Positions 53,497 to 59,756 of a stretch of DNA of 64,000 nucleotides are shown piece after piece. The stretch lies in the NCBI RefSeq assembly GCF_000058485.1, contig NC_008278.1:4520962-4584961 (forward strand), in the 5' to 3' direction. Origin of the DNA: Frankia alni ACN14a. GTDB taxonomy: Bacteria > Actinomycetota > Actinomycetes > Frankiales > Frankiaceae. Made by a program: the position numbers and the translations under genes. Numbering within the stretch: position 1 is the stretch's first letter; each line of letters opens with the position of its first letter. The notes under the pieces are model-generated. The model was not told the DNA's origin and ran no database searches. It was given only the letters and a program-made list of their open reading frames with translations.

Positions 53497-54660
53497 TCAG
53501 CGGCCCCGGCGGGTGTTGAGCCGGGCGGCCTGGCGCGTCAGGTGGTCGCGCTCCGCGATGGTGGAGGCCGCGTGGGCCGCCTCGGCGTACAGACGTGCCG
53601 CCGTCGCCAGGTCGCCGTCGCGTTCGTGGAGGTACGCCGCCACCGCGGCGTGGCGGGGCAGTGCGTCGTCCAGCGCGGCCAGCGCCGCCAGGCCGGCGCG
53701 TGGCCCGTCCGCCTCGCAGACGGCCACCGCGCGGTTGAGCCGGACGACCGGGCTGTCGGTCAGGCGGGCGAGCTCGTCGTACCACTCGACGATCTGCACC
53801 CAGTCGGTCTCCGCGGCGGTGGGCGCGTCCGCGTGCAGTGCCGCGATGGCGGCCTGAGCCTGGAACTCGCCCAGCCGGTCGCGGGCGAGGGCGGCCTGCA
53901 GGATCGCGACGCCCTCGGCGATCAACGCGGTGTCCCACCGGCCGCGATCCTGCTCGGCGAGGGGCACCAGGCTGCCGTCGGGCGCGGTCCGGACCGCGCG
54001 CCGGGCGTGGTGGAGCAGCATGAGGGCGAGCAGGCCCGCCACCTCCGGATGGTCGATCGCGGCCGCGAGCTGCCGAGTGAGCCGGACGGCCTCGACGGCG
54101 AGGTCGACGTCGCCGGAGTAGCCCTCGTTGAAGACCAGGTAGAGGACGCGCAGCACGGTGGCGACGTCGCCGGGCCGGTCGAGGCGCACACCGGACACGG
54201 TGCGCTTGGCCCGGCTGATGCGCTGCGCCATGGTCGCCTCGGGGACCAGGTAGGCCCGGGCGATCTGGCGCGTGGTCAGTCCCCCGACGGCGCGCAGCGT
54301 GAGCGCGACGGCGGACGACGGCGTCAGCGACGGATGGGCACACAGGAAGTAGAGCTGGAGCGTGTCGTCGACCGCGGACGCGGGTCCGGGCGCCGGCTCG
54401 TCGTCGACGAGGCCCTCCCGACGGCGGCGCGCGACGTCCGCGCGGGTCGCGTCGAGGAACCGGCGCCAGGCGACGGTGACCAGCCAGCCCTTCGGGTCCC
54501 GCGGCGGGTCGGCCGGCCAGACGCGGACCGCCTCGACCAGCGCGTCCTGCACGGCGTCCTCGGCCGCCGCGAAGTCCGCTCCGCGGCGGACGAGGATCCC
54601 GAGCACGCCCGGCGTGAGGCTGCGAAGCAGGACCTCGTCCACCCGCGGAGGTCCGTTCAC
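53497..54660 (-). CDS. ECF sigma factor of the DGPF-associated (ECF42-like) group
   Basis: A 387-residue sigma factor. Region 2 includes FAAAEDAVQDALVEAVRVWP and the DPKGWLVTVAWRRFLDA segment. Region 4 has VGGLTTRQIARAYLVPEATM followed by AQRISRAKRTV. After it comes a long TPR-like C-terminal extension (about 200 residues: LYLVFNEGYSGD, LLHHARRAVRTAPDGSLVPL, ALHADAPTAAETDWVQIVEW). This is the architecture of ECF42-type sigma factors, which lack an anti-sigma factor and are regulated through the extension. The GTG start overlaps the stop of a DGPF-domain gene, the typical partner of this group. The earlier in-frame ATGs up to 55509 would read through that partner gene out of frame and are not real. 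Confidence 0.9.
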   Translation of the reverse strand: MNGPPRVDEVLLRSLTPGVLGILVRRGADFAAAEDAVQDALVEAVRVWPADPPRDPKGWLVTVAWRRFLDATRADVARRRREGLVDDEPAPGPASAVDDTLQLYFLCAHPSLTPSSAVALTLRAVGGLTTRQIARAYLVPEATMAQRISRAKRTVSGVRLDRPGDVATVLRVLYLVFNEGYSGDVDLAVEAVRLTRQLAAAIDHPEVAGLLALMLLHHARRAVRTAPDGSLVPLAEQDRGRWDTALIAEGVAILQAALARDRLGEFQAQAAIAALHADAPTAAETDWVQIVEWYDELARLTDSPVVRLNRAVAVCEADGPRAGLAALAALDDALPRHAAVAAYLHERDGDLATAARLYAEAAHAASTIAERDHLTRQAARLNTRRGR

Positions 54661-55076
54661 TTGAAATGGCACTCTGTGACGGTGTGCGTCGCGGACAGGA
54701 ACGGGCGCAGCTCGAGCCACTCGTGGATCGGCCTCCCGCCCGCCCCGGGGGCGGCCGACAGCTCCCCGGCCAGCTCCACGGCGCGCTCGTAGCTGTCGAC
54801 GTCGATCACCATCCAGCCGGCGACGAGGTCCTTGGTCTCGGCGAACGGGCCGTCGGTGACCGGCGGGCGGCCCTCGCCGTCGTACCGGACGAACGTCCCC
54901 GTGGGGGCGAGCGCCAGGCTGTCGACGAACTCGCCGGTCCCCTCGAGCCGGGCCGCGAAATCGTTCATGTACTGCACGTGGGCCGAGACCTCCTCGGGCG
55001 TCCACTGCTCCATGGGCACGTCGTTGACCGCGGCCGGGGCGCCGCGGTAGTGCTTGAGCAGCAGGTACTTGGCCAT
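54657..55076 (-). CDS. DGPF-domain (YCII-related) protein
   Basis: A 139-residue YCII-fold protein with the signature DGPFAETKDLVAGWMVIDV. It starts MAKYLLLKHYRG and has the EFVDSLALAP segment. Similar proteins are encoded next to ECF42 sigma factors and are thought to be part of the same stress circuit, perhaps as targets or small enzymes. ATG 55076 has GAGGAG seven bases upstream. Its TGA overlaps the sigma factor's GTG (GTGA), so the two are made together. Confidence 0.92.
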   Translation of the reverse strand: MAKYLLLKHYRGAPAAVNDVPMEQWTPEEVSAHVQYMNDFAARLEGTGEFVDSLALAPTGTFVRYDGEGRPPVTDGPFAETKDLVAGWMVIDVDSYERAVELAGELSAAPGAGGRPIHEWLELRPFLSATHTVTECHFK

Positions 55077-55463: not shown

Positions 55464-56693
55464 ATGACTGTGTCTTCGAGTGATACGGCGCCGCCGAATC
55501 GTGCGGCATCTTCAGGTGTTACGGCAACTTCGGGTGTTGCGGCGTCCGCGGGTGTTGCGGTGGCGCCGTCCCCGTTGAGTAGCGAGCGCCTGCTGGACGG
55601 GACGGACGCCGCGCCGCTGTTCACGCCGTTCTCCCTGGCCGGCGTCGAGCTGGCCAACCGGTTCGTGATGGCGCCGATGACCCGCAGGTTCTCCCCGGGC
55701 GGCGTGCCGGGCGAGGACGTGGCCGGCTACTACGCGCGGCGGGCCGCGCACGTGGGCCTGATCGTGACCGAGGGCACCTACGTGGATCATCCCTCCGCCG
55801 GGAGCAGCGACCGGGTGCCCCGGTTCTACGGCGACCAGGCGCTCGCCGGCTGGCGCCGGGTCGTCGACGCCGTGCACGCGGTGGGCGGGCGGATCGTCCC
55901 GCAGCTGTGGCATCTCGGCGCCGGCCGCGAGGCGGGTGCTCCGCCGCATCCGGAGGCGGCGGTGTTCTCCCCGTCGGGCCGGCGGGGCGACGGGACGGTG
56001 GTCGGCGACGAGGCCAGCACCGCGGAGATCGACGAGGTGATCGCCTCCTTCGCACGCGCCGCGGCCGACGCGCGCCGCGCCGGATTCGACGGCGTCGAGC
56101 TGCACGGGGCGCACGGCTACCTGCTGGACCAGTTCTTCTGGCTGCGGACCAACCGGCGCGCCGACGGCTACGGCGGCAGCCTGGCCAACCGGGCCCGGCT
56201 CGGGGCCGAGGTCGTCGCCGCGGTCCGTGACGAGGTGGGCCCGGACCTCCCGGTGATCTACCGGTTCTCCCAGTGGAAGGGCGGCGACTACGACGCCCGT
56301 ATCGCCGAGAACCCCGAGGAGCTCGAGACGCTGCTCACCCCGCTCGTGGACGCCGGCGTCACCGTGCTGCACGCCTCCACCCGCCGCTACTGGCAGCCGG
56401 CGTTCGACGGCTCCCCGCGGACCCTGGCCGGCTGGGCCAGGAACATCACCGGCCTGCCCACCATCGCGATCGGCTCGGTCGGCGTGCCGACGGCCTTCCG
56501 CGGCGACGACGAGAGCCCGGCGGCGACGCTGAGCCTCGCCCCGCTGCTGGAGCTGTTCGAGCGCGGCGAGTTCGACCTGGTCGGCCTCGGCCGCGCCCTG
56601 CTCTCCGAACCCGCCTGGGCCACCAAGCTGCGCGATCGCCGCCTGGCCGAGATCCGCACCTACGACAGCGCCGACGACTCCCGCCTGACCTGA
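55464..56693 (+). CDS. Old-yellow-enzyme family NADH:flavin oxidoreductase
   Basis: A 409-residue FMN-dependent TIM-barrel oxidoreductase. LFTPFSLAGVELANRFVMAP then MTRRFSPGG form the N-terminal strand and FMN loop, ELHGAHGYLLDQFF the two-His substrate-binding motif, and NRRADGYGGSLANRARL the family signature. The C-terminal GLPTIAIGSVGV and LVGLGRALLSEPAWA bind the FMN phosphate. These enzymes reduce activated C=C bonds. The first 40 residues are Ala/Ser/Val repeats (SGVTATSGVAASAGVAV) and not part of the fold. ATG 55464 is a reasonable start; an upstream GTG at 55419 is also in frame. A strong hairpin terminator lies 87 bp after the stop. Confidence 0.92.
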   Translation: MTVSSSDTAPPNRAASSGVTATSGVAASAGVAVAPSPLSSERLLDGTDAAPLFTPFSLAGVELANRFVMAPMTRRFSPGGVPGEDVAGYYARRAAHVGLIVTEGTYVDHPSAGSSDRVPRFYGDQALAGWRRVVDAVHAVGGRIVPQLWHLGAGREAGAPPHPEAAVFSPSGRRGDGTVVGDEASTAEIDEVIASFARAAADARRAGFDGVELHGAHGYLLDQFFWLRTNRRADGYGGSLANRARLGAEVVAAVRDEVGPDLPVIYRFSQWKGGDYDARIAENPEELETLLTPLVDAGVTVLHASTRRYWQPAFDGSPRTLAGWARNITGLPTIAIGSVGVPTAFRGDDESPAATLSLAPLLELFERGEFDLVGLGRALLSEPAWATKLRDRRLAEIRTYDSADDSRLT

Positions 56694-56813: not shown

Positions 56814-57061
56814 GACGGGATCTGTCGTGACCCGGACCAGGAAAGTGTTGCACATTCATGGCCGAGAAATGTCCGTGGCCCCGGCGAGGATTGCGGTTTC
56901 CGGGCGCCAGAAGTAATGTTCGCATGCGCCATGACGGTTCGTACGCGGGAGGTACGCCGTACGGCATTTCCCGCCCGATCGGCGCACCGGCCCGCGCCGC
57001 GCCCCCTTCCGGATCGCGGTCCTCTTCGGCAGGAATTGCCACGCACCCCGAGGGAGTCACG

Positions 57062-57850
57062 GTGACCGCTATCCGTACCGCGCCCCACGACATCCGCCCG
57101 GCCAGCCCCGTCCTCGGCGCCGAGGTCGTCGGCGTCGATCTGGCCGGTGGCGTCGACGACGCCACCGCCGAAGCCCTGCGCGAGGCGTTCTGGCAGCACA
57201 AGGTCCTCGTCTTCCGCGACCAGCACCTCTCGCCCGACGCGCACGTGCAGGCAGTACGGATCTTCGACGAGCCCTTCGACCACCCGAAGTGGCTGTACCG
57301 CCACGAGGACAACCGGCTGGTGTACGACTTCCAGCTGGAGAAGGCCGGGGGCGCCTCGACCTGGCACGTCGGCGGCACCTGGCGGACCCCGCCGTTCCAT
57401 CTGGAGTCGCTGACCTACCAGGTGGTCCCGGACATCGGCGGGCGCACGCTGTGGGCCGATCTGCAGGCGGCCTATGACGGCCTGTCCGAGCCGTTCCAGC
57501 ACCTGCTGGAATCCGTGAGCGCCGTGTACAACGCCGATCCGGGCGACGGGACCTACAACCGGCCGCCGGTGACCGAGACCGTCGAGCACCCGGTCGTGCG
57601 CACCCACCGCCACACCGGTCGCAAGGGACTCTTCCTCAGCTCGTCGGCGCTGCGGCTGACCGGCGTCGGCCCGGCCGAGGGCGCGGCCCTGCTGCCGTTC
57701 CTGCTGGCGCACGCCTCCTCGCCCAACTACACCGTCAGCTTCGGCTGGAAGCCCGGGGACTTCGTGACCTGGGACAACCTGGCCACCTGGCACTTCGCGG
57801 TCAACGACTACGACGGCCCGCGCGTCTACCGCAAGGTCATCGGCGGCTGA
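57062..57850 (+). CDS. TauD/TfdA-like Fe(II)/2-oxoglutarate protein with HxG in place of HxD
   Basis: A 262-residue TauD-fold protein. The N-terminal strand region (ASPVLGAEVVGVDLAGGVDD) and WQHKVLVFRDQHLSPDAHV are typical. The metal motif normally reads WHxD; here it is WHVGGTWRTPP, so His102 is kept but the Asp/Glu ligand is Gly104. The distal His (TWDNLATWHFAVNDY, His244) and the 2-oxoglutarate-binding Arg region (GPRVYRKVIGG) are kept. In iron/2-oxoglutarate halogenases the carboxylate ligand is likewise Gly or Ala, leaving room for chloride; alternatively the protein has lost iron chemistry. GTG 57062 has GAGGGAG six bases upstream; a longer in-frame ATG (56858) lacks conserved sequence. 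No partner gene is adjacent. Confidence 0.88.
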   Translation: MTAIRTAPHDIRPASPVLGAEVVGVDLAGGVDDATAEALREAFWQHKVLVFRDQHLSPDAHVQAVRIFDEPFDHPKWLYRHEDNRLVYDFQLEKAGGASTWHVGGTWRTPPFHLESLTYQVVPDIGGRTLWADLQAAYDGLSEPFQHLLESVSAVYNADPGDGTYNRPPVTETVEHPVVRTHRHTGRKGLFLSSSALRLTGVGPAEGAALLPFLLAHASSPNYTVSFGWKPGDFVTWDNLATWHFAVNDYDGPRVYRKVIGG

Positions 57851-57949
57851 CCCACGGCCACGGCGGGTTCGCCCCCCCAGCTTCGATCGCCGCCCCGCCG
57901 GCTCCGACAGTCGAGGAAACCCTGCTATATGGGGCGGGACCGCGTCTCT

Positions 57950-58612
57950 ACCGTCGGTCTCCGTTTGCCCGAAGGCCGCGCCGAGCTTCTTCATCGCCGA
58001 CGGTGATCCGACGTGCGACAGCACCGACTGGGCGACGATCCGCGGAAACTGGGTGTTCGGCCTGGCCAGCGTGACCGCGAGCGTCCGGGCGTCGACCACC
58101 GAGGTCGACGCGATCCGCCGGGCGTAGCCGGCAGCGGCCGAGCCTCTGGCCGGGTCGGCGTCCACCTGCCAGTTGTACTGGACGGCCGCGGCGTCGAAGG
58201 GCGTGCCGTCCGAGAACGTCACCCCGTCGCGCAACGTCAACGTCCCGTGCACGTTGTCGTTGGTCGTCAGTGACTTCGCAATACGATTGCGCAGTCCGCC
58301 CGACGTGTCGAAGGCGATGAGCGCGTCGTCGATGGCGAACCGCTCGTCGGTGCCGCTCTGCGGGCCGGCGTCCGCGACCGTGCGGTACGGGGACAGATCC
58401 TTGATGGCGGCATCGGTGCCCGACCACACCCAGGTCAGGGTCCCGCCGTGCGTGGGCGCACCGTTGGTTCCCCCGGTGCCCGTGCCCGTGGTGGACGACG
58501 ATGCGCCGCCCGCGCCCGCCAGGAGGACGGCTGCAACACGCACAGCCGACGCCGCGGGTGTCGGCGCGTCGCTACCCCGCCTGCGACTCGAAGAGTGATT
58601 GCCTGACTTCAA
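57950..58612 (-). pseudogene. Truncated family 5 extracellular solute-binding protein
   Basis: Only the first roughly 190 residues of a peptide/nickel-type substrate-binding protein (normally about 550) are present: THGGTLTWVWSGTDAA, DERFAIDDALIAFD, LRDGVTFSDGTPFDAAAVQY then NWQ, and IVAQSVLSHVGSPSAMKKL. Homology stops near 57950, although the frame stays open into unrelated antisense sequence. The signal region reads VLLAGAGGASSST, where a lipobox Cys would be expected. A TTG at 58612 is the only plausible start. No permease or ATPase genes are nearby. I regard it as a broken relic. Confidence 0.75.
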
Positions 58613-58661
58613 TGCGTATTCGATGGCGTGGCGAGGGTCGGCCACCGTCCGGGAGGCGTCG

Positions 58662-59756
58662 ATGGGTGCGGTGCGGGCGATCAGGGTCGCGGCGGCAGCG
58701 ACGGTGATGGCGGCGGCGACAGTGACCGGCGCCGTCCTGTCGTCCGGAGTGGCGGTGGCTGCCGCACCCGCTGCCGGGCCCGTACGGCCGGTCGATCTGG
58801 GCGCCCTGCCGGGCATCACCCACAACGGCGCCACCTCGATCAACAACCGCGGTGACGTCGTCGGCTCCGGCTACAGCAGTCCGTACGACAGCCACGGATT
58901 CCGCTGGTCGCGGGGGGTCCTCACCGCCCTGCCCGACACCGCGCGAGCACCCCTCCTGATCAACGACGCCGGGCAGATCGCCGGTGTCCTGCCGGGTCGC
59001 TTCACCTCGTCCGGCTTCGTGATCCGTCCCGACGGCGCCGTGGTCGATCCCGGGTTCACCCCGGTTGACCAGAACGAGCGCGGCCAGGTGGTCGGGACGG
59101 GTCCGGCCGGCGGGGGGACGCACGCGATGAGCTGGCGCGACGGCCGGACCGTCGATCTCGGCGCGCCCGCGGGCTACACCAGCCAGGCCATCGCGGTGAG
59201 CGACAACGGGTGGATTTTGGGTGAGCTGCAGCGCAAGGACCACCCCGACGACCAGTTCGCCCGCTGGTTGCGCGGCCGCTGGGTGCCGCTGCCCGGCCCG
59301 CACGGCCGCGCCGTCGACATCAACGACCGCGGGGACGTCGTCGGCTGGGCCACGACCCCGGCGGGCATCACCCACGCCACGCTGTGGCAGCGCGACCGCG
59401 CCATCGACCTGGGCCCCGAGGACGCGGCCCTCAGCCAGGCACTGGCCGTCAACAACGGCGGCCAGATCGTCGGCTCCACGTTCGATCCGGACACCGACGC
59501 CGGGCACGTCCTGCTCTGGGACCATGGCCGCCAGAGCGACCTGGGCACGTTCGGCGGCTCCTTCGCCCGGCCGCTCGCCCTCAACGACCGGGGCGACGTC
59601 GTCGTGCAGACCAGCACCGGAGCCTTCCGCTGGCGCCACGGCCGGACCGTGCGCCTCGACGGCTCCGCCGAACCGGCGGCGATCAACAACCTCGGTCAGG
59701 TCGTGGGCTCCGTGCTCCGGCCCGACGGCACGAGCCACGCCGCCCTGTGGAACTGA
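58662..59756 (+). CDS. Secreted HAF-repeat protein
   Basis: A 364-residue exported protein. The signal peptide (VRAIRVAAAATVMAAATVTG) is followed by about seven repeats with the HAF/INNRGDVVG pattern: SINNRGDVVGSGYSSP, LINDAGQIAGVLPG, AVSDNGWILGEL, DINDRGDVVGWATTP, AVNNGGQIVGSTF, ALNDRGDVVVQTS and AINNLGQVVGSVLRPDG. Between them come AFRWRxGxxxDLG-type strands. This builds a beta-propeller-like fold seen in many secreted bacterial proteins; the ligand is unknown. ATG 58662 has GGGAGG five bases upstream. It reads away from the solute-binding relic. Confidence 0.88.
   Translation: MGAVRAIRVAAAATVMAAATVTGAVLSSGVAVAAAPAAGPVRPVDLGALPGITHNGATSINNRGDVVGSGYSSPYDSHGFRWSRGVLTALPDTARAPLLINDAGQIAGVLPGRFTSSGFVIRPDGAVVDPGFTPVDQNERGQVVGTGPAGGGTHAMSWRDGRTVDLGAPAGYTSQAIAVSDNGWILGELQRKDHPDDQFARWLRGRWVPLPGPHGRAVDINDRGDVVGWATTPAGITHATLWQRDRAIDLGPEDAALSQALAVNNGGQIVGSTFDPDTDAGHVLLWDHGRQSDLGTFGGSFARPLALNDRGDVVVQTSTGAFRWRHGRTVRLDGSAEPAAINNLGQVVGSVLRPDGTSHAALWN

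Follow-up and report, generated by a model that had tools for sequence, protein, structure and literature searches.

In the window, by which we mean the whole stretch of 64,000 nucleotides of Frankia alni ACN14a DNA that was analysed (contig NC_008278.1), an unbroken reading frame runs from a GTG at position 57062 to a stop codon at 57850. It encodes a protein of the TauD/TfdA fold in which the HxD motif of the iron site is replaced by HxG (hereafter, the HxG protein). The features of the gene, of its product and of its immediate surroundings are as follows.

57062 to 57850, + strand: gene of the HxG protein, TauD/TfdA fold, 262 amino acids, GTG start (translation, Pfam PF02668, AlphaFold2)
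57050 to 57056, + strand: probable ribosome-binding site GAGGGAG, 5 nt 5' of the GTG (sequence; orthologues share the start residue)
57365 to 57373, + strand: His102-Val103-Gly104, HxG replacing HxD (alignment to TauD and AtsK; invariant in 33 orthologues)
57404 to 57406, + strand: Glu115, clade-specific, candidate relocated metal ligand or substrate-binding residue (Glu in 13 of 13 HxG rows of the alignment; Ser, Ala or Thr in 37 of 37 HxD rows)
57446 to 57448, + strand: Thr129, corresponding to the 2-oxoglutarate (2OG)-binding Thr126 of TauD (invariant in the alignment)
57791 to 57793, + strand: His244, distal iron ligand, corresponding to His255 of TauD (invariant in the alignment)
57821 to 57823, + strand: Arg254, 2OG-binding arginine, corresponding to Arg266 of TauD (invariant in the alignment)
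57833 to 57835, + strand: Lys258, aligned with Arg270 of TauD, which binds the sulfonate of taurine (Lys in 12 of 12 HxG rows that are not gapped at this column; Arg in every ungapped HxD row)
55467 to 56693, + strand: old-yellow-enzyme-type flavin oxidoreductase, upstream neighbour (Pfam PF00724, 204 bits; same position in four Frankia genomes)
57911 to 58435, - strand: remnant of an Opp/Dpp-type solute-binding protein, directly downstream (Pfam PF00496, 62 bits, profile positions 4-100 of 368 only)

By profile, the HxG protein is a member of the TauD/TfdA superfamily. Its score against Pfam PF02668 (TauD) was 162.1 bits (cut-off 27), and the match spanned the whole domain (residues 11-254). 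Against the TauD equivalog NF007104 it scored 157.9 bits, below the cut-off of 313. The AlphaFold2 model, for which the family alignment was the input, had a pLDDT of 93.1 and a pTM of 0.90, and the solved structures closest to this model were TauD proteins (3pvj: VIA Z 33.6, rmsd 1.6 Å, 249 residues). Three further TauD proteins are encoded in the same genome (7,497,934 bases, single contig); they are distant from the HxG protein (31-36% identity), and all have Asp in the alignment.

The original prediction had placed an HxG ligand pattern, H102-V-G104, within positions 57359-57382 and had described His244 and the 2OG-binding Arg as intact. Both statements were confirmed, the first by the codons at 57365-57373 together with the alignment to the solved TauD and AtsK sequences, and the second by the invariance of the two residues in the alignments. 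His102 corresponded to His99 and Gly104 to Asp101 of TauD. Further, the WHTD of TauD and AtsK aligned with Trp101-His102-Val103-Gly104, with no gap from the motif to the GGxTLW block. The HxD...H triad (2-His-1-carboxylate) was therefore absent from the HxG protein, and its Asp was present in 37 of 37 HxD comparators. All orthologues had the halogenase-type pattern, namely HxG/A with both His and the 2OG Arg (His102-x-Gly104, His244 and Arg254).

We also considered whether the motif had been misaligned and the real HxD lay six residues later, as tblastn had paired the FGGxWHxD of some relatives with VGGxWRxP. This idea was rejected because the spacing from the motif to GGxTLW was identical in TauD and the query and because MAFFT aligned Asp with Gly104 in all 37 comparators.

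The homologues carried the same glycine: W-H-[V/I]-G-G was found in 33 of 33 distinct orthologues, which were 40-95% identical and came from Frankiaceae, Mycobacterium, Streptomyces, Pseudonocardia and Actinomadura, and also from Pseudofrankia and Protofrankia. The member of lowest identity (40%) was that of Streptomyces abikoensis. Within the genus Frankia, the gene was present in 9 of 13 genomes (81-100% identity), with H[VI]GG in all nine. A close relative was found in 19 of the 393 genomes sampled from the class. Streptomyces (393 genomes) and the genus with Mycobacterium gordonae-like members (198 genomes) contributed additional members from 10 and 2 genomes, respectively. When 396 actinobacterial genomes were scanned with a DNA pattern, no HxG TauD beyond the clade members was detected, the rest being chance matches, and plasmids contained no relative of more than 60% identity.

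In a maximum-likelihood tree, the 33 HxG and 37 HxD rows were split on one branch (support 100/99, 100% of bootstrap trees). The branch of S. abikoensis was long, and its exact placement is therefore less sure. The pairwise dN/dS between orthologues (NG86) was 0.07-0.24, and the HxG clade is thus under strong purifying selection. Judged from these sequences, the clade has a single origin within Actinomycetia and combines the TauD/TfdA fold with an iron site that lacks the Asp ligand.

The alignment columns that separated HxG from HxD proteins included Gly104, Gly105, Phe112, Glu115, Ser193, Trp243, Asp251 and Lys258. In the AlphaFold2 model, the strand that follows the motif (residues 114-121) has Glu115 at its beginning. 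Position 115 appears to point into the barrel interior at its metal end, because HxD relatives have small or hydrophobic residues at positions 115, 117 and 119, while positions 118 and 120 vary. In the 3-His-1-Glu cupins, such as the quercetin and acireductone dioxygenases, which share the barrel fold, the Glu of the cupin motif lies in the segment past the first metal motif and binds the metal, and TauD and SyrB2 have been aligned to the cupin motif (PMC4019311). Since position 115 topologically matches this Glu, it is plausible that Glu115 is a carboxylate relocated to the iron; we infer its role from this likeness. The cupins differ in that they do not use 2OG and in that the spacing from motif to Glu is much shorter than the roughly 10 residues of the HxG protein. 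More specifically, the facial triad of organosulfur-scavenging enzymes might have been rewired in a cupin-like manner, the HxD Asp being lost and the Glu of the next strand now binding the iron, a proposal that we regard as doubtful. We know of no 2OG oxygenase with a cupin-like Glu ligand arrangement. The open-access literature consulted contained no description of TauD-fold proteins in which a natural HxG is linked to Glu115, and this group is apparently undescribed.

Arg270 of TauD binds the sulfonate of the substrate (PMC9304159, PMC7949033). This residue is replaced with Lys258 in the HxG protein, and Asp94 and Asn95 of the TauD amine site are replaced with Gly97 and Ala98 in the gapless alignment from the motif, so that the taurine pocket (Arg270, Asp94/Asn95) was not found. 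With the amine-binding residues lost and Arg270 changed to Lys, taurine is probably not the substrate, and the protein is unlikely to be a taurine dioxygenase.

We compared the gene neighbourhoods of the HxG clade. At the ACN14a locus itself, the only sulfur-related content was the transporter remnant at 57911-58435 (- strand), which is probably a decayed transporter gene; binding proteins related to it were found at six other HxG loci. The neighbours at HxG loci included importers of the Opp/Dpp or polar-amino-acid type. The stretches read at 28 HxG loci contained 35 luciferase-like flavin monooxygenases, compared with an expectation of about 5.6 based on the highest density estimated for these genes in the genomes. 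The Poisson value overstates the significance of this excess, because the counting relied on family models derived from the same HxG loci, because genes of this type tend to cluster and because the lineages are related. Among HxD control loci, 1 of 17 had such a monooxygenase. Further, the excess was visible separately in Frankiaceae, Mycobacteriaceae and Streptomyces.

In two Streptomyces loci (L132 and L135), the genes encoded, in this order, an SsuA-like binding protein, an SsuC-like permease, an SsuB-like ATPase (read in L132), the HxG TauD and an SsuD-like monooxygenase, where the ssu-like names are the best NCBIfam matches, all below equivalog cut-offs. A canonical HxD TauD was encoded 7-10 kb from this ssu-like operon, which also had genes for an XRE-type regulator and an apparent class V aminotransferase. 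The Pseudonocardia loci and some Streptomyces loci encoded a family-3 binding protein, a polar-amino-acid permease, a GNAT protein and NtaA/SnaA-like monooxygenases, a set that we take to resemble S-alkylcysteine salvage operons. At twelve loci (Frankia-type, Streptomyces and others), the stretch that was read lacked sulfur-related genes. Overall, the HxG neighbourhoods suggest organosulfur scavenging rather than the production of halogenated natural products.

AtsK and Rv3406 are sulfate-ester dioxygenases. With these two enzymes and TauD (all PF02668), the HxG protein shares the fold, the His, His, Arg and Thr of the iron and 2OG site and, at the level of the clade, the organosulfur gene context. 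His74 of the HxG protein corresponds to His70 of TauD. In contrast to the three enzymes, the HxG protein has Gly for the Asp ligand, Glu115, Lys for Arg270 and a shorter lid region, and the amine-binding residues are lost. The HxG enzymes are an uncharacterised variant of the known TauD family and not a new kind of enzyme.

Our best guess ranks an organosulfur oxygenase first, a halogenase second and a non-catalytic protein third, with part of the probability left unassigned. In the first reading, to which we assign a probability of about 45%, the protein is catalytically active as an Fe(II)/2OG oxygenase and contributes to the release of sulfur from a small organosulfur compound that the cell imports, as its neighbours suggest. 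Fe(II) would be held by His102 and His244, and 2OG by Arg254 and Thr129. The third iron ligand would be either Glu115 of the next strand, as in cupins, or water, as in human AspH. O2 and 2OG would give a ferryl species that attacks a C-H bond near the sulfur, and the nearby-encoded flavin monooxygenases would complete C-S cleavage. The fixation of HxG in one selected clade, the retention of the Fe/2OG residues, the TauD fold, the link of Glu115 to HxG, the excess of monooxygenases and the ssu-like operon in two Streptomyces support this reading.

Human AspH offers an analogy in the same direction. It is a 2OG enzyme that, like the HxG protein, has a two-His iron site without a protein carboxylate, although it differs in family and substrate; its iron is bound by the two His and water, and it hydroxylates but does not halogenate its substrates (PMC13168262). 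By this analogy, a two-His iron site with water may suffice for hydroxylation in the HxG protein. Other analogies count against the oxygenase: loss of the Asp usually abolishes hydroxylation, and in TauD D101A and P4H D414G hydroxylation was lost and halogenation was not gained (PMC2767507). The loci without sulfur genes, the presence of only a transporter remnant at the Frankia locus and the different genes adjoining the S. abikoensis member also count against it.

The second reading, which we consider unlikely, is that the protein is an Fe/2OG halogenase, in which Gly104 frees the site for chloride or bromide and a haloferryl species transfers chlorine to an aliphatic carbon in a small substrate; this chlorination might be a cryptic step preceding elimination. 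HxG/A is a widely used signature in mining for radical halogenases. SyrB2, WelO5, BesD, AdaV/AdeV and plant DAH, like the HxG clade, have HxG/A for HxD and retain both His and the 2OG Arg, and the fixation of this combination across the clade favours a halogenase. We know of no counterpart of Glu115 in the Fe/2OG aliphatic halogenases; if near the iron, this clade-wide Glu in the barrel would disfavour an anion. Plant DAH became a halogenase through a natural D-to-G change, and the D219G variant of AtF3H gave a chlorinated product (PMC12346261). BesD may have arisen via loss of the carboxylate, followed by the linkage of substrate and chloride binding (PMC10187165). However, TauD D101A did not gain halogenase activity, and the neighbours of the HxG loci were of the sulfur-scavenging type, with no large PKS/NRPS-like synthase noticed nearby, in contrast to the natural-product context of the Fe/2OG aliphatic halogenases.

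Further, the HxG protein had no detectable sequence match to the solved halogenases. No halogenase was matched in a family profile search of the PDB (up to E 10) and NCBIfam, but this is weak evidence, because several unrelated 2OG families have given rise to halogenases and the known ones lie outside this family. None was among the matches listed by Foldseek and VIA either, which does not indicate absence. Open-access literature on Frankia and Fe/2OG halogenases yielded nothing relevant.

The step from HxG to halogenation in the original prediction was therefore only partly upheld. The pattern, its conservation and the 2OG residues stood. The inference of halogenation was not established, since HxG alone is not diagnostic: AspH hydroxylates naturally, and TauD D101A and P4H D414G gained no halogenation; the clade-wide Glu115, which may provide a substitute carboxylate, and the sulfur-type neighbourhoods also weigh against it. 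A selected HxG clade of the TauD fold with a linked Ser-to-Glu change and sulfur neighbours is a direct test of the HxG/A mining rule. If its members halogenate, they would be, as far as we know, the first halogenases of the TauD family, in which the engineered D101A failed. If they hydroxylate, they would show how natural oxygenases can do without the Asp ligand, and they would represent a type of false positive that mining for halogenases returns.

The third reading, a non-catalytic, non-redox protein that no longer binds iron productively and acts as a binding or regulatory subunit, is improbable. Removal of the carboxylate abolishes the activity of TauD and P4H, which is consistent with it. 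However, the clade is old and has members in several families, and inactivity, which had also been proposed, appears unlikely because purifying selection is strong (dN/dS as given above) and His102, His244, Arg254 and Thr129 are invariant. Finally, a strain-specific point mutation (with Asp in the homologues) or a sequencing error in a single Frankia genome has a negligible probability and was rejected, as HxG was present in all 9 orthologues of the genus and in all 33 overall, which belong to several actinobacterial families.

The surroundings of the HxG gene varied between genomes. In five Frankiaceae (L106, L109, L110, L111 and L115), a relative of glutathionyl-hydroquinone reductase (Xi-class GST) was encoded directly downstream; its ACN14a orthologue lies 115 kb from the HxG gene. 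Actinobacteria use mycothiol rather than glutathione. In S. abikoensis (L024 and L120), the HxG gene adjoins genes that, by eye, encode an apparent leucyl-tRNA synthetase-HAD fusion, a glycosyltransferase, an amino-acid permease and a DegT-type aminotransferase; together these may form a natural-product cluster. In the ACN14a window, a YCII-domain protein (54657-55076, - strand) is encoded beside an apparent ECF sigma factor (53497-54600, - strand), a common actinobacterial pair. A repetitive protein (58599-59756, + strand), with repeats like LGxxxG...INxxGQVVG and a weak DUF3466 match, adjoins the HxG gene in ACN14a and two close Frankia genomes only.
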